From assembly GCA_025055435.1 (NCBI GenBank), contig JANWWN010000002.1, forward strand, positions 47,383 through 111,382: a DNA stretch of 64,000 nt, read 5' to 3'. Shown one piece after another: positions 47,776 to 53,730 of this stretch (positions within the stretch are counted from its first letter, which is position 1; every line of letters starts with the position of its first letter). The translations under genes and the position numbers were made by a program. Under the pieces are notes generated by a model. The model did no database searches. It was not told the DNA's origin and saw nothing but the letters and a program-made list of their open reading frames with translations. Origin of the DNA: Cyclobacteriaceae bacterium (GTDB lineage: Bacteria > Bacteroidota > Bacteroidia > Cytophagales > Cyclobacteriaceae).

Positions 47776-48330
47776 TTAATCATTACCCTCTTCGGCGTCA
47801 GCTTTTTTCAACTCTTCATCTATAATCTGCTCAATGATTTCGCGCTGGCGCTCGTTGATGGTATTATCCAGTTTGGCCTGACGTTTCATAAAACGCAGCA
47901 TGGCGTTTTTCTTGATTTCATAAGCCATGAACACCGTGTACTCGCCGGATTTTTTGTTGAAATATTTCTTCTCTCCGATTTTGCGCAAGTCGGCAATATC
48001 AGTATTCATAACCTGTCGCACCAGGCTTTGAAATTTATCGGCAATATCGGCTGCGCGTTCATTTCCGGTATCGGTTAAATACTGATCGGCTACCTGCTTC
48101 ATGGTAGTATTTACCTGGCCGGCCAGTTGCGCTTTGGCGTCGAGGTCGGCTTTGGCCCGGGCTATGTTATCCTGCGAACTCACACCTTTGCCGGTGCCGC
48201 GCCAAAAGCGGTTATTCGACATGTAGGCGCTGCCCTGAAATGGTTCGCGCACGCGTGTACCGAGAACGGATGAGCAGGCTTGCAGCAGAAGCAACGCAAG
48301 TACAGGAAGAACAAAGATGAGGCGTTTCAT
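47776..48330 (-). CDS. LPP20-like lipoprotein
   Basis: 184 residues. The signal peptide ends at the lipobox LLLQAC (Cys about 19). The following part (GTGKGVSSQDNIARAKADLDAKAQLAGQVNTTMKQV) is the LPP20 family pattern, in which glycine/serine-bounded helices contain repeated Ala and Lys. The C-terminal part is helical and charged (ERQREIIEQIIDEELKKADAEE). Relatives include putative surface lipoproteins of unknown role. It has its own start region and is convergent with the amidohydrolase gene. Confidence 0.75.
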   Translation of the reverse strand: MKRLIFVLPVLALLLLQACSSVLGTRVREPFQGSAYMSNNRFWRGTGKGVSSQDNIARAKADLDAKAQLAGQVNTTMKQVADQYLTDTGNERAADIADKFQSLVRQVMNTDIADLRKIGEKKYFNKKSGEYTVFMAYEIKKNAMLRFMKRQAKLDNTINERQREIIEQIIDEELKKADAEEGND

Positions 48331-48364: not shown

Positions 48365-49072
48365 TTATGCCAAATCGTTGATGCGGATAATCACCTGCCA
48401 GCGAAAGGCCCATTTCCAGTTCAATGTAAAGGTATGGATGCCGGCTTCCTTCATAATTTCTTCTATTTCATCGCGCGTAAAGCCGCGCAAAACCGATAAG
48501 GGAGCATCATACTTAACCATGTCCGACCGGGAAAACAGGGTTGTAAGCAGCCGGATGCTGTGATAGGCCAACGGATGCCGATGCAGGTCATTGACAACAA
48601 TACCGATTCGGGTTTGGTAAAGCAGCTGACGGAAAATCTGAACCAGTTCTGCCGAAGTAAAATGGTGAAAGAACAGGGTTGCCAATACGATATCGAATTT
48701 TCTTTTGCGGAAGGAGTAGCTGAAAATATTTTCCGATAACAGGTTGATAGACGGATCATTTACATATTGCCGGGCATAAGCGATGATGTGCGGGTTGGCA
48801 TCAAAACCGGTGAGCTGAAAGGGATAACCAGGAAAACTTTCGCTGATGCGCTTCAGCATTTCACCACTGCCGCAACCCAGATCGGCTATGGTAATGACAC
48901 GATTGGGATTTACAGGTAAAATTTGTTGCAGGGCCTGAAGCGTAACCATGTTGCCGCCCAGCCATTTGTTAATCACATCCAGTTCGCGCAAGGTTTGATG
49001 CACCACTTCGCCCGAGCATGTCAGATCGTCCATGAGCTCCGGCGTATGAATACGTTGACTTAAACGACTCAT
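48365..49072 (-). CDS. SAM-dependent methyltransferase of the type III PKS locus
   Basis: 235 residues if translation starts at the ATG at 49072, which overlaps the PKS stop as ATGA. The alternative ATG at 49078 adds only two residues. Motif I is IADLGCGSGEML near residues 65-76; the SAM-binding GFDANPHIIAYARQ and the IVLATLFFHHF motif follow. The chain is a small-molecule-type methyltransferase. Its tight coupling to a type III polyketide synthase strongly suggests methylation of the polyketide (O- or C-methylation not decided). Confidence 0.85.
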   Translation of the reverse strand: MSRLSQRIHTPELMDDLTCSGEVVHQTLRELDVINKWLGGNMVTLQALQQILPVNPNRVITIADLGCGSGEMLKRISESFPGYPFQLTGFDANPHIIAYARQYVNDPSINLLSENIFSYSFRKRKFDIVLATLFFHHFTSAELVQIFRQLLYQTRIGIVVNDLHRHPLAYHSIRLLTTLFSRSDMVKYDAPLSVLRGFTRDEIEEIMKEAGIHTFTLNWKWAFRWQVIIRINDLA

Positions 49073-50163
49073 GCGCATTCAATTTCGAGCACCATGCTTT
49101 CGAGTGTAAGGCCCGGCCCGAAAGCGAAGCTCATCACCGCTTTACCATGGTCGTTACGGCTGAGCGTGTCGCGTAATTCCTTTAGAACAAAAAGTACCGT
49201 GGGTGATGACATATTACCATAGTTATGCAACACCCGGTAGGCCGGTGCATTTTGTTCGGGGCGAAGCCGGAGTTGTTCTTCAATTACTTCCAGAATGCGC
49301 TTTCCGCCCGGATGAATGGCGAAGTAGGGAATATCAGCAACTTGTTTTTGCATCGGCTTTAGCAGTTGCTGTGTCAAGGTACCGATACCGGATCGGATTA
49401 AGTCCGGCACATAACCGGAAAGCTTCATGATAAATCCGGCATTACCGATGTTCCATGCCATGTGCTCGGTGCCGTTTACCGCAAGCATGTTGTTGAACTG
49501 TTTGAGCCGGAAGTTCACACCCGTTGCCGGATGATTAGTTACCAACACTGCCGCAGCACCGTCGGCAAACAGAGCATTGGCCAGCAGGTTATCTTCCGTG
49601 CCTTCGCGCTGAAAATGCAGACTGCACAACTCCGTACACACAATCAATACGCGGGCATCGTGCCGGGTCGCGCAATAAGCATGAGCAGCTTTAAGGGCGG
49701 TAAAGGCTGCATAACAACCCATAAAGTTGATGCACAACCGGTTTACCGAAGGTTGCAGGTTTAGTGCATGAACCAGGTCAATATCCAGTCCGGGAGCATA
49801 CATGCCCGTGCAACTAACCACAATGAGGTGGGTAATTTGATCTGCGCTGAACGATGTGTTATGCAAACAATTGTCAATTGCGGAAAGGCTTAACCTACAG
49901 GCATGTTGCCGGTATACGTCCAATCGTTGCTGTGTGGTAGGGAAGGGATCAAATCCGTCGGTATAAAAAGTATAATCACTGGTCTTGCCATAATCACTCA
50001 GCACGGAATGTCGCCAGGCAATACCGCTGGCACGGAAAATGGTTCTGAGTTTGCGTTCATCGCCTGGAGCGAGTTCCATGGCTCTCGACATAAATCCCGC
50101 CAGTGTTTCCTGACTGAACCGATGCTGCGGAACAGCTGTGCCGATGCTGGTGATGAAAGCCAT
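49069..50163 (-). CDS. Type III polyketide synthase (chalcone/stilbene synthase family)
   Basis: 364 residues. The catalytic triad is recognisable: Cys118 in VVSCTGMYAPG, His284 in FAIHPGGKRILE and Asn317 in HNYGNMSS. The C-terminal FGPGLTLESMVLE is the conserved product-site loop (GFGPG in plant enzymes). It condenses an acyl-CoA starter with malonyl-CoA to give resorcinols, phloroglucinols or pyrones; starter and chain length are not known. The methyltransferase is translationally coupled downstream. UbiA lies divergently 46 bases upstream. In Bacteroidota, type III PKS loci are typical secondary-metabolite clusters. Confidence 0.93.
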   Translation of the reverse strand: MAFITSIGTAVPQHRFSQETLAGFMSRAMELAPGDERKLRTIFRASGIAWRHSVLSDYGKTSDYTFYTDGFDPFPTTQQRLDVYRQHACRLSLSAIDNCLHNTSFSADQITHLIVVSCTGMYAPGLDIDLVHALNLQPSVNRLCINFMGCYAAFTALKAAHAYCATRHDARVLIVCTELCSLHFQREGTEDNLLANALFADGAAAVLVTNHPATGVNFRLKQFNNMLAVNGTEHMAWNIGNAGFIMKLSGYVPDLIRSGIGTLTQQLLKPMQKQVADIPYFAIHPGGKRILEVIEEQLRLRPEQNAPAYRVLHNYGNMSSPTVLFVLKELRDTLSRNDHGKAVMSFAFGPGLTLESMVLEIECA

Positions 50164-50176
50164 TTTATCTTATCGT

Positions 50177-50195
50177 GTAAAATACGCTATTTTAC
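50177..50195. promoter_or_regulatory. Perfect palindrome in the divergent PKS/ubiA promoter
   Basis: GTAAAATA-CGC-TATTTTAC forms two exact 8-base arms around a 3-base spacer, extended by a further G/C pair after one mismatch on each side. It lies in the 46-base gap between the type III PKS (minus) and ubiA-like (plus) start codons. It is an obvious candidate operator for joint control; each arm also resembles the start of a -7 box (TATTTT). Confidence 0.6.
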
Positions 50196-50209
50196 TCTAA
50201 CGCCTGTTT

Positions 50210-51097
50210 ATGTGGTCAACCCTGCTCCACCTGCGCATACCTTTTTCGTGGTTTCTGTTGCCGGTATTTCTTTTCAGTTTAAGCTTTTCGCCCAATATCA
50301 ATGAAAGCCGTTTGATGTGGGTATTCATCATCCTCCATTTGTTGGTTTACCCGGCCAGCAACGGATATAACAGTTATTTTGACCGCGATGAGCAGAGTAT
50401 CGGATTGCTCCGGCATCCGCCAAAAGTTAATCACAGTCTATATTTTATTTCTTTGCTGTTAGATGGGCTCGCCCTTATTTTATCTTTTATCCATATTAAC
50501 ACAACCTTTGCGTTGATGGTTTTGGTTTATGGGCTTGCATCGAAAGCGTACAGTCATCCTTCCGTGCGGCTCAAGAAATATCCCGTTTCGGGTTGGATTA
50601 CCGCCGGCTTTTTCCAGGGTTTTTTTACGTTTCTTACCTGTTATATCGGATTAAATGATTTTGAAATCAGTCAGGCGCTTCGTCCGCAGATTATTGCACC
50701 GGCCTTGCTGAGCAGCATCATGTTGTGGGGGAATTATCCGCTTACGCAGGTTTACCAACACCAGGAAGATGCGCAACGTGGTGATTTAACACTGAGCTTG
50801 CGGCTGGGCATAACCGGAACGTTTTATTTCAGTGGCTGGATGTTTCTGCTTGCCGGTGTGGGTTTTGTTGTTCTCTTCCACTACATGTTTAGCGGAAAAT
50901 ATCTTCGCGAATTTGTGCTGGCCATGGCACCCGTGGTGTTGTTTTTCGCATTTTGGTTTTACCGGGTAAGGCAGCATCCGGATTATGCACGGTATGATTA
51001 TGCCATGTGGATGAATTTTATTTCTTCCACAAGTCTGAACGTCTTTTTTGGATATCTGTTTTTGCACTCAACAAATGTTTTGCAGGCCTTTGGATAA
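50210..51097 (+). CDS. UbiA-family prenyltransferase
   Basis: 295 residues, eight or nine transmembrane helices (LRIPFSWFLLPVFLFSLSF, LLLDGLALILSFIHI, and so on). The first Asp-rich region is NGYNSYFDRDEQSIG near residue 62 and the second is YPLTQVYQHQEDAQRGD near 182-198, matching the UbiA pattern with some Asp replaced. It transfers a polyprenyl group onto an aromatic acceptor or acts as a related ring-forming enzyme. Next to a type III PKS, the natural acceptor is the polyketide aromatic. It is divergent from the PKS. Confidence 0.88.
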   Translation: MWSTLLHLRIPFSWFLLPVFLFSLSFSPNINESRLMWVFIILHLLVYPASNGYNSYFDRDEQSIGLLRHPPKVNHSLYFISLLLDGLALILSFIHINTTFALMVLVYGLASKAYSHPSVRLKKYPVSGWITAGFFQGFFTFLTCYIGLNDFEISQALRPQIIAPALLSSIMLWGNYPLTQVYQHQEDAQRGDLTLSLRLGITGTFYFSGWMFLLAGVGFVVLFHYMFSGKYLREFVLAMAPVVLFFAFWFYRVRQHPDYARYDYAMWMNFISSTSLNVFFGYLFLHSTNVLQAFG

Positions 51098-51108
51098 AGG
51101 CCGAGCAG

Positions 51109-52536
51109 TTATGACGAAAACGAAAGTTTTCTTAATCGAAAGAAGATTTTTCGATACACCGGATACACGCCAGTCAATTTCAGTAAAGCAATAATCCGGT
51201 GCTTGAATGTCGGATTGAAGGGAATCTCAATCAGTTTTTTGTCGGTGATTTTTAATATTTCCGCATGTAATACTGAAAAATATTTATCCCGGTCTTTTCG
51301 TGGCACGGACAACAGGAGAGATAATAAATACCTGTTATTAAAAGGTGATATCACAAGGCTATTAATATTGAAGACGGATTTTGCTGCTCCTGCCCAGTTG
51401 GGCATTTTGTGTTCCCAGTAAATCAAATCCAAAATATGTAAATGCCCGTTAACAGTTTGTCTCCAGTTTTCTACCGCCTGTTTTTCATAAACTCCTTCTC
51501 CTGCTCCGATGATATAGCAAATATCGCCTGAGCTTAACTTTTCGGGTAGCGGGTCGTAAAAACTTCTTGCAATTTCACTCACATTTCCGTTGACGATATA
51601 ATGACCGGGAAAATTACGCTGTAAATAAGCTGACAACAGTTGGGTGCGTTTGTCTTTCTTCCAGGTTGCGGTATCGGTTGCAGAAGGACTGTTTAACAGG
51701 GACGAATCATATTCAATAACTTCCAGGTGCTTTGAAAAGGCAGCAACGATTTTTCGGGCTACGTCCACATCGCTTTTTGCCTCCGGCGTTTTGTGGTTAA
51801 AAATGAAATACTTAACATTTTCCGAATACTTCAGCGAAGCAGCAAAAAGCAATCGGGAGTCCCATCCACCGGTCAGGGCAACTGCGGCAGGCTTGCGGTG
51901 TACCAGGCTTTCCATGGTTTTTTCAAGGATAAATGCTGCCTGCGGTGCAACCTCGTCAGAAGTTTTTTCAATGAGTGGCGTTAGCGGAAAGAAGCGGACC
52001 AGCTGACTGACGGTTACATCGTAGTAGAAATTGGGTATCAGTTTTTCAACATCCTGTAGCGGAGTTTTATTGAAGATGGTCGTTTTGTGCTCAATAACAT
52101 ATCTCGGTGCAGCCACATCATAATTTTCAGCTCCCAGTAACGGAAATGTAAGATGTGGTTGGGATGCAACGATGAAACGCGAACCTTTCCGGTAAATAAA
52201 TACTTCGAGCTGGCCGGATGCATCGTTAAAAATGCGGAGGTGATTCCTGTCAAAAAAAAGTAAAACAAAAAAGCCGCTTAGCTGATTGATCTTATTAATC
52301 AAATCCTCAAAGTTCAGATCGTTCAGTTGACGAATAATTTCCAAATTGAAATGTTTCGGGTTTTTGAAGTCGAAACAATCACCAAAAAAAATAATGTTGG
52401 ATGTACAAATTAAGTTTGCCCGATTTTCGGGATGGATCAAGCCATAAAATCCGTTGTGCGAAAATGACCATCCGTCTTTTATTGACTCACCAACCGGAGT
52501 ATTACTAAAAGCAAACTGAAAGGGTTGGATCGTCAT
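51109..52536 (-). CDS. Asparagine-synthetase-like ligase without an active glutaminase
   Basis: 475 residues. The N-terminal about 155 residues have the fold pattern of the Ntn glutaminase domain (LSGFFVLLFFDRNHLRIFNDASG), but Met1 is followed by Thr rather than the catalytic Cys, so glutamine hydrolysis is not possible. The synthetase domain has the PP-loop ALTGGWDSR at about residues 215-223 and FNINSLVISPFNNRYLLSL near 395. Beta-lactam synthetase is a known relative that lost glutaminase and joins an amine to a carboxylate. It lies inside the PKS block between ubiA and the flavoprotein gene. Composition is more AT-rich than its neighbours, a hint of separate acquisition. The substrate is unknown. 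Confidence 0.83.
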   Translation of the reverse strand: MTIQPFQFAFSNTPVGESIKDGWSFSHNGFYGLIHPENRANLICTSNIIFFGDCFDFKNPKHFNLEIIRQLNDLNFEDLINKINQLSGFFVLLFFDRNHLRIFNDASGQLEVFIYRKGSRFIVASQPHLTFPLLGAENYDVAAPRYVIEHKTTIFNKTPLQDVEKLIPNFYYDVTVSQLVRFFPLTPLIEKTSDEVAPQAAFILEKTMESLVHRKPAAVALTGGWDSRLLFAASLKYSENVKYFIFNHKTPEAKSDVDVARKIVAAFSKHLEVIEYDSSLLNSPSATDTATWKKDKRTQLLSAYLQRNFPGHYIVNGNVSEIARSFYDPLPEKLSSGDICYIIGAGEGVYEKQAVENWRQTVNGHLHILDLIYWEHKMPNWAGAAKSVFNINSLVISPFNNRYLLSLLLSVPRKDRDKYFSVLHAEILKITDKKLIEIPFNPTFKHRIIALLKLTGVYPVYRKIFFRLRKLSFSS

Positions 52537-52614
52537 AACTTTTTCTTTTGTTATCAGGTGCTTTGCCTTTTCAGAATATTTAGGAAAATTATCAAAAAAT
52601 CAAATCATGTAAAT

Positions 52615-53730
52615 TCAAAACACTTGGCCATGCGACAAACGCACCAATTGCCGTGCTACAGGAGGTAAAGTTAACGCCAGGTTAACGGCAATACCGGATG
52701 AAACGGCGGATCCAAACAAGTAATGCTGCATCAGCCTGCCTGCTCTTAATCTTCGTACAAAAAGCGCCCTCCATTGCCGTGCATATTCGTTCTCCAGCCA
52801 CGCGCTGCTTTTCTTTTCCTTACAATACCGGTGAATCAATTCGCTCACCATTTTACCTGCATGGATGGCCATGGCCATGCCGTTACCACACAGCGGAGCA
52901 ATTAATCCGGCGGTGTCACCCGCCATGAGAATGTGATTGTAAACCGGCTCGCGGATATCGAACGAAATTTCATTAATGGTTTCAGGCTGCTGGAATAAAA
53001 ATTCGGAGTGTTTAAAAATCTGCTCCAGCAAGGGATTGCGGCACAATACTTCGCCTTCCATCGCGGCTATGTTGCCGCTTTGTCGCAACACATCGCGATG
53101 TACCAGGTAACATAAATTGGTTAGGCCATTCTCCACCCGGCTTATGCCACAGTAACCTCCCGGAAAGTTGTGCAGGGCAATCAGGTCGTCCGGGAAATCG
53201 GTTCGGATATGGTATTTCACGCCAACGAAGGGCGAACGCTTTTTGATAAAATCCCTGTTAAGAAAAAAATCCAGTTTGGAGCGCTTTCCGTAAGCACCAA
53301 TAACAATGCCGGCAGTAAAGGTACCGGTGGATGTAATCAGCTCAAACTCACCATCATGGTAATTTATTTCCCTGACTTCGCAGTTTTCCAGAATCTTTAC
53401 ATCGGATTCGCGTGCCTTTTCGGCCAGAAAATTATCGAATGCAAACCGGCTGATGCCAAAACCACCCAAATCAAGATTTAAAAAAACATATTTTCCGTTT
53501 ACCGCACTGAGCTGAAAGCGATGAATGGAAGGAGGTTCAAGATGGGCAGGGAAAACGCCAAGGGATTGTAAAAACGGCTTTGCTTCGTTAGAGACATATT
53601 CTCCGCATACGCGATGAAACGGATATTTCCGTTTTTCGAATACCGTACAGGAAATGCCCTGTCGCGAAAGACAAATGGCTGCTGTGAGCCCGGCCAGTCC
53701 GCCGCCCACAATGGCTACATTTTTTTGCAT
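52615..53730 (-). CDS. FAD-dependent oxidoreductase, geranylgeranyl-reductase-like
   Basis: 371 residues. The FAD motif is VAIVGGGLAGLTAAICLSRQG at residues 5-25. The reductase motif FEKRKYPFHRVCGEYVS (about 35-51) and the second FAD-binding motif LMAGDTAGLIAPLCGNGMAMAIHAGKM (about 285-311) are intact. The family hydrogenates isoprenoid double bonds or hydroxylates/halogenates aromatics. Next to UbiA it plausibly reduces the prenyl chain or oxidises the aromatic ring. The gene is part of the PKS block. Confidence 0.88.
   Translation of the reverse strand: MQKNVAIVGGGLAGLTAAICLSRQGISCTVFEKRKYPFHRVCGEYVSNEAKPFLQSLGVFPAHLEPPSIHRFQLSAVNGKYVFLNLDLGGFGISRFAFDNFLAEKARESDVKILENCEVREINYHDGEFELITSTGTFTAGIVIGAYGKRSKLDFFLNRDFIKKRSPFVGVKYHIRTDFPDDLIALHNFPGGYCGISRVENGLTNLCYLVHRDVLRQSGNIAAMEGEVLCRNPLLEQIFKHSEFLFQQPETINEISFDIREPVYNHILMAGDTAGLIAPLCGNGMAMAIHAGKMVSELIHRYCKEKKSSAWLENEYARQWRALFVRRLRAGRLMQHYLFGSAVSSGIAVNLALTLPPVARQLVRLSHGQVF

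Follow-up and report, generated by a model that had tools for sequence, protein, structure and literature searches.

A type III polyketide synthase, methyltransferase, FAD enzyme and UbiA prenyltransferase conserved as a set in Bacteroidota and predicted to make a prenylated phenolic lipid

A compact biosynthetic locus was examined in a 64,000-nucleotide stretch of contig JANWWN010000002.1 from the Cyclobacteriaceae bacterium assembly GCA_025055435.1; the whole stretch is called the window here, and the locus occupies its positions 48365–53730. Four genes of the locus encode a type III polyketide synthase (T3PKS), a SAM-dependent methyltransferase (MT), a UbiA-superfamily membrane prenyltransferase and an FAD enzyme, and they form a set that tends to be kept or lost together in relatives. 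We consider it reasonably probable that the four enzymes make up a pathway whose product is a meroterpenoid, either a phenolic lipid or a quinone, in which a long-chain alkylresorcinol is hydroxylated, methylated and C-prenylated. The protein families, the catalytic residues, the conservation and the co-occurrence on which this proposal is built are observed.

All five open reading frames that a sequence-only reading had listed in the locus are present, including a T3PKS and MT that face a UbiA gene, and Pfam assigns the MT, T3PKS, UbiA and FAD proteins to families. The MT gene (48365–49078, minus strand, 237 amino acids) overlaps by 10 bases with that of the T3PKS (49069–50163, minus strand, 364 amino acids), and 46 bases separate the starts of the T3PKS and UbiA genes, which are on opposite strands, UbiA running from 50210 to 51097 on the plus strand (295 amino acids). 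An asparagine-synthetase-like (AsnB-like) gene follows at 51109–52536 (minus strand, 475 amino acids), and the FAD enzyme, a member of the PHBH/halogenase/geranylgeranyl reductase (GGR)-like superfamily, is encoded at 52615–53730 (minus strand, 371 amino acids). The GC content of the AsnB-like gene is 0.41 versus 0.44–0.50 for the other four. The sequence-only reading took all five genes as one system for a methylated, prenylated, reduced and perhaps amidated aromatic lipid. The conserved four-gene set bears out the methylated and prenylated part of this description; the reduced and amidated parts, and the membership of the AsnB-like gene, were not upheld.

Conservation was followed in the best 80 of 575 confirmed T3PKS loci, which were searched with the window's proteins and in which some absences are due to contig ends. 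The T3PKS is found in 80, the MT in 77, the FAD enzyme in 69 and UbiA in 37. The closest named loci within this set come from records titled Cytophagales, Cyclobacteriaceae and Flammeovirgaceae. The 43 loci that lack a UbiA gene beside the T3PKS are mostly from Hymenobacter, Pontibacter and Rufibacter, and every one of these 43 genomes carries a UbiA of the same subfamily elsewhere (E 1.1e-94 or better, with stops in 4 of the 43 matches). Because the four genes are conserved in distant genomes, this part of the locus is not a chance assembly.

The same association is seen when whole genomes are compared. Among 147 relatives, a close T3PKS and the UbiA occur together in 110, the T3PKS alone in one (G048, whose assembly has about 340 contigs), the UbiA alone in none, and neither in 36. 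Left out of this table are G020, G116 and G144, whose T3PKS is a distant one and which have the FAD enzyme but no UbiA; with them, the figures become 110, 4, 0 and 33. Three further genomes with FabH-like matches only (G065, G093 and G112) are not scored as carrying a T3PKS. The FAD enzyme is found with a T3PKS (E 1e-30 or better) in 109 of the relatives, with five genomes holding the T3PKS only and none the FAD enzyme only. Within the family to which the window's bacterium belongs, 15 genomes, each from a different genus, are without T3PKS and UbiA alike, some of the assemblies being incomplete, and these joint losses are spread across the family.

A sample of 395 genomes drawn evenly from the phylum, some of them also among the 147 relatives, extends the pattern. 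Here the T3PKS (E 1e-50) is found in 168 genomes, UbiA (E 1e-20) in 60 and the FAD enzyme (E 1e-40) in 82. The T3PKS is present in 60 of the 60 UbiA genomes, a figure that includes the more distant UbiA proteins of family f43 described below, and in 80 of the 82 FAD genomes. Every UbiA genome thus has a T3PKS, but UbiA is missing from 108 of the 168 genomes with a T3PKS, which places it with a single clade of these synthases. When f43 is excluded and UbiA is scored strictly, 26 of 26 UbiA genomes have both T3PKS and FAD enzyme, and these 26 coincide with the 26 genomes whose T3PKS matches are strongest. The UbiA and T3PKS genes lie within 2.5 kb of each other in 20 of them and not in the other six, one of which (G301) has the two genes on two contigs.

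Gene order was read in 126 loci (L031–L110 and L135–L180), some from the same genome and eight fetched for other genes. At thresholds of more than 150 bits for the T3PKS, 55 for the MT, 30 for the FAD enzyme and 80 for UbiA, and with contig-end loci included, 114 of the 126 loci have a T3PKS: MT, FAD enzyme and UbiA are all near it in 34, MT and FAD enzyme without UbiA in 44, MT and UbiA without FAD enzyme in 11, and other combinations in 25. The linked four-gene forms recur in several families with differing orders. In the window's family (f1), UbiA is divergent and the FAD gene convergent; two loci (L141 and L142) have UbiA, PKS, MT and FAD genes all on one strand; another (L139) has a divergent UbiA followed by PKS, MT and FAD genes; and in a fourth arrangement (L138) the order is FAD, PKS, MT with UbiA elsewhere in the same genome (L170). 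Being kept together despite rearrangement is stronger than plain synteny, which near relatives show for flanking genes too. Those flanking genes, a PDZ gene in 24 of the 80 loci and a lipoprotein gene in 23, are kept in near relatives; the latter corresponds to a 184-amino acid gene with a lipoprotein-like N terminus downstream of the MT (window positions 47776–48330).

Other arrangements of the triad of T3PKS, MT and FAD enzyme were also seen. Two loci whose label as Flavobacteriaceae-type was inferred (L144 and L145) have the order FAD, MT, T3PKS with UbiA not nearby. In L144 the triad is followed by genes for an SDR, a FabA-like dehydratase and a FabF-like ketosynthase (Pfam), and like-sized genes are found there in L145; we read the two as a second locus type with its own acyl-chain genes. 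Three more loci (L147, L148 and L149) have a T3PKS–MT–FAD triad with a distant FAD enzyme, with a MATE transporter and a 1303-amino acid histidine kinase upstream in L147 (Pfam) and similar-sized genes in the other two.

The first enzyme is a type III PKS by the presence of both Chal_sti_synt domains (N domain E 1.7e-29, C domain E 3e-25) and a Cys-His-Asn triad, C150, H284 and N317, that is invariant in 19 aligned rows. The residues that we take to line the long-chain tunnel of the pyrone synthase PKS18 (T144, A148 and C205) align with T119, A123 and C180 of the window protein, as read from the alignment. In 24 aligned rows, with the window protein counted twice, A123 and C180 are found in all and T119 in 23, with Ser in one; as these tunnel positions are kept, the sequence suggests that the T3PKS uses long acyl starters. 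W237 is present in all 24 rows, including those from Paludisphaera, Paracoccus, Roseomonas and Psychrobacter, and stands opposite a Leu in PKS18. A Trp at position 281 of ArsB is tied to resorcinol formation in the available text of two reports (PMC9927152, PMC5916927), and W237 is proposed to be its equivalent. The enzyme is a predicted alkylresorcinol synthase. The AF2 model of the T3PKS has a pLDDT of 89.2. Identity with DpgA was considered and rejected at 156.9 bits against an NCBIfam cut-off of 425.

The MT was assigned to the class I methyltransferases (Pfam Methyltransf_25, 1e-14), and the methyltransferases in the triads of Psychrobacter, Paracoccus, Roseomonas and Paludisphaera are its homologues.

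The FAD enzyme had been called geranylgeranyl-reductase-like, a loose name. The geranylgeranyl reductase family model TIGR02032 is its best NCBIfam match, at 90.3 bits against a cut-off of 158.8. Neither the motif that we take to mark GGRs (YxWxFP) nor the one presumed for halogenases (WxWxIP) is found in any of 82 FAD family members from the loci. The enzyme is homologous to FAD genes beside T3PKSs in other phyla, of which the Paracoccus and Roseomonas copies are annotated as FAD-dependent monooxygenases. Its model (pLDDT 89.9) has halogenases as the best fold matches in VIA-align (Z 35–37 at the top, PltA at 37.2), with 3-hydroxybenzoate 6-hydroxylase at Z about 34 and PHBH at about 31. The GGR-like structure 3oz2 ranks 12th in Foldseek and is not among the 50 VIA-align matches listed, which proves nothing; as read from the model, the fold alone does not settle the choice between GGR and hydroxylase. 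Identity as a geranylgeranyl reductase was rejected on the curated cut-off and the presumed motif, and we infer that an aromatic ring hydroxylase is the better fit. A reduced product is unsupported for that reason.

The UbiA protein matches PF01040 at 61 bits (cut-off 34.2), and its Asp-rich motif residues N54, D58, D60, D187 and D192 are invariant in 22 rows. It belongs to a subfamily that has no curated name. It matches no NCBIfam model at E 1e-5, EboC included, and the curated models for MenA, CyoE, EboC, 4HB and geranylgeranylglyceryl phosphate (GGGP) transferases give no match; at E 0.01 only BchG (21.6 bits) and PRK13595 (16.3 bits) appear, far under cut-off. The window's genome has four UbiA-superfamily genes, the other three being CyoE, MenA and a PRK12872-type, or ether-lipid-type, protein, all over cut-off. 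A profile of the subfamily (A2) gives 476 bits on the window UbiA, 18 on MenA and nothing reported for the other two paralogues. The UbiA proteins of family f43, which is outside the class, are more distant matches at about 110–154 bits, and the three placed in a tree form a long separate branch. A Pfam scan of neighbors in four of the six regions with an unlinked UbiA gave no shared partner gene. Bacteroidota-type quartets also occur in records titled Candidatus Anammoxibacter (L082) and Rickettsiales (L103), with UbiA proteins that fall among Bacteroidota in the tree, and these are probably misbinned or misnamed metagenome-assembled genomes. As a separate observation, contig C34 of genome G000 has a GGGP synthase (PcrB) about 34 kb from a UbiA that resembles geranylgeranylglycerol-phosphate transferases, a possible set of ether-lipid genes in the window's bacterium.

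With the substrates and order of steps that we infer, the T3PKS would add about three malonyl-CoA units to a long-chain fatty acyl starter, and aldol closure would give a 5-alkylresorcinol. The FAD enzyme would then hydroxylate the ring to a trihydroxy or hydroquinone form, and the MT would methylate an oxygen (or a carbon). In the membrane, UbiA would put an isoprenoid chain, whose length is a presumption here, on the ring. The pathway would end in an alkyl-hydroquinone that has been prenylated and methylated, or in the corresponding quinone. As for its biological role, the product could serve in the membranes of Bacteroidota as an additional lipoquinone that acts as a redox carrier alongside menaquinone; it would have alkyl and isoprenoid chains and a benzoquinone ring derived from a T3PKS, not from chorismate. 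We regard this particular identity as unlikely.

Other accounts of the locus have been weighed against the four-enzyme pathway. A single five-gene pathway ending in an amidated product is extremely unlikely. In its favor, the FAD gene is followed on its own strand, 78 bases downstream, by the AsnB-like gene, whose protein keeps a TGGWDS loop (residues 222–227). Against it, the AsnB-like gene occurs in none of the 80 T3PKS loci, so that the five genes are not conserved together as regards this one gene, and it is missing from the nearest relative (G013, with a T3PKS 70 percent identical), where the FAD and UbiA genes abut (L177). Of all the loci read, only that of the window has it between the FAD and UbiA genes. 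Of 146 other relatives, two have a homologue that covers most of it, at identities of 36 and 28 percent, and one of these homologues (L176) adjoins genes for a methyltransferase, a polysaccharide flippase and a protein like YfhO; 27 more relatives have partial matches only (E 6.7e-8 or weaker). The name asparagine-synthetase-like is itself loose, as was geranylgeranyl-reductase-like, each protein scoring under its NCBIfam cut-off: TIGR01536 gives 22.9 bits against 267.1, and there is no Pfam match at E 0.01. The glutaminase of asparagine synthetases uses an N-terminal Cys, and the AsnB-like protein has no Cys at position 2. It was rejected as a pathway member on its absence from the loci and from G013, the rarity of its homologues and the L176 context, and is probably a bystander, a recent local insertion between the FAD and UbiA genes.

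Two further accounts concern the UbiA gene. In one, it would encode a digeranylgeranylglyceryl phosphate synthase and the FAD gene a GGR; these would be archaeal-type ether lipid genes whose place next to an ordinary alkylresorcinol locus is accidental. According to the portion of PMC7852524 available, Bacteroidetes GGGP synthases are active in vitro and FCB bacteria are possible producers of ether lipids; the synthase (PF01884) is found in 121 of the 147 relatives, and the best, below-cut-off NCBIfam match and the Foldseek rank of the FAD enzyme also fit. However, UbiA tracks the GGGP synthase poorly (both in 100 relatives, UbiA only in 10, synthase only in 21, neither in 16) and the T3PKS almost perfectly. 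In addition, another UbiA of the genome passes NF009513, scores below cut-off on geranylgeranylglycerol-phosphate transferase models and is on the same contig as the GGGP synthase, and the FAD proteins lack the presumed GGR motif. The GGGP synthase control thus disfavors the ether-lipid account, which is very unlikely. A smaller but real possibility is that the triad makes an unprenylated methoxylated alkylquinol, like hierridin or PkQ products, with UbiA in a separate pathway kept by the same species. This would agree with the occurrence of the triad alone in other phyla and in Flavobacteriaceae-type loci, with the T3PKS genomes of the phylum sample that have no UbiA and with the unlinked UbiA in 6 of the 26 strict genomes. 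Against it, UbiA without T3PKS was never seen at the thresholds used in the 147 relatives and the 395-genome sample, and linked forms recur in several families with differing gene orders.

Several points weigh against the four-enzyme pathway itself. The product and the activities of the four proteins are predictions from their sequences. In the phylum sample, 108 genomes with more distant T3PKSs have no UbiA at E 1e-20, and the Flavobacteriaceae-type loci carry PKS, MT and FAD enzyme without UbiA. Exceptions also occur in the other counts: a T3PKS is missing at E 1e-50 from 2 of the 82 FAD genomes, the FAD enzyme is missing at E 1e-40 in 5 of 114 T3PKS relatives, and UbiA is missing in 4 of the 114, counting the three with a distant T3PKS. 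The genomes are related, and the co-occurrence counts are not independent events, so that Fisher values for these tables, which disregard relatedness, are not taken as probabilities; for the MT, membership was judged from locus neighborhoods and not by a genome-wide search. The match of W237 to ArsB W281 was set by context, with no ArsB in the alignment. As far as its available text goes, the planctomycete study did not settle what the matching oxidoreductase does, and the methyltransferase expressed with it seemed to act on carbon (PMC10896814).

The wider finding is that a UbiA subfamily without a curated name tracks one T3PKS clade across much of an order, whether the genes are clustered or dispersed. 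This pattern points to an undescribed lipid of many Bacteroidota, among them named strains of Pontibacter, Hymenobacter, Rufibacter and Chryseolinea. If the product is a quinone, polyketide quinones would extend beyond Actinobacteria.

The four-enzyme set is a variation on a known triad, and, in agreement with the sequence-only reading, which recognized no described product, a search of the open-access literature found no account of it in the passages covered; three papers available in part mention T3PKS clusters in Bacteroidota and give no products for them. The window's triad proteins are homologous to the T3PKS–MT–FAD sets of Planctomycetota and of Alpha- and Gammaproteobacteria, and the make-up of the hierridin/PkQ-type triad is what the 80 loci carry, at the counts of 80, 77 and 69 given above. 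The hierridin genes hidABC of Cyanobium, likened here by gene kinds and not by sequence, and the planctomycete operon encode the same three kinds of protein; against the triad on a Paludisphaera plasmid, the window MT is 23 percent and the FAD enzyme 26 percent identical. In the available parts of two reports, the T3PKSs of the planctomycete and cyanobacterial triads make long-chain alkylresorcinols (PMC10896814, PMC8086630). The pkqA–C genes of Mycobacterium and Streptomyces, for a T3PKS, a methyltransferase and an oxidoreductase, are described in the accessible text as giving a methylated alkylquinone electron carrier (PMC9927152, PMC5916927). They are the same triad kinds by description, not by sequence, but are actinobacterial, and the three genes described there include no prenyltransferase.

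In the part of PMC7587189 available, the loseolamycin locus of Micromonospora endolithica is listed with consecutive genes for a UbiA prenyltransferase, a methyltransferase and an acyl-CoA dehydrogenase together with losA, the T3PKS gene; a promoter inserted before losA activated only that gene, and plain alkylresorcinols were isolated. Compared by gene table and not by sequence, it has UbiA and MT near a T3PKS as in the window but no FAD hydroxylase among the listed neighbors. Ubi-297, or EboC, is a Bacteroidota enzyme resembling UbiA that transfers farnesyl to aromatic (quinoline) substrates, as described in the portion of PMC9235831 available, but it belongs to the ebo cluster, another class, and its model does not match the window UbiA. 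PMC10896814 nowhere mentions a prenyltransferase or UbiA, and only one hierridin-like cluster, from Raphidiopsis, is reported with a prenyltransferase, its kind not stated in the available text (PMC8086630). UbiA sets the window's genes apart from the hierridin and planctomycete triad, of which it is not a part.

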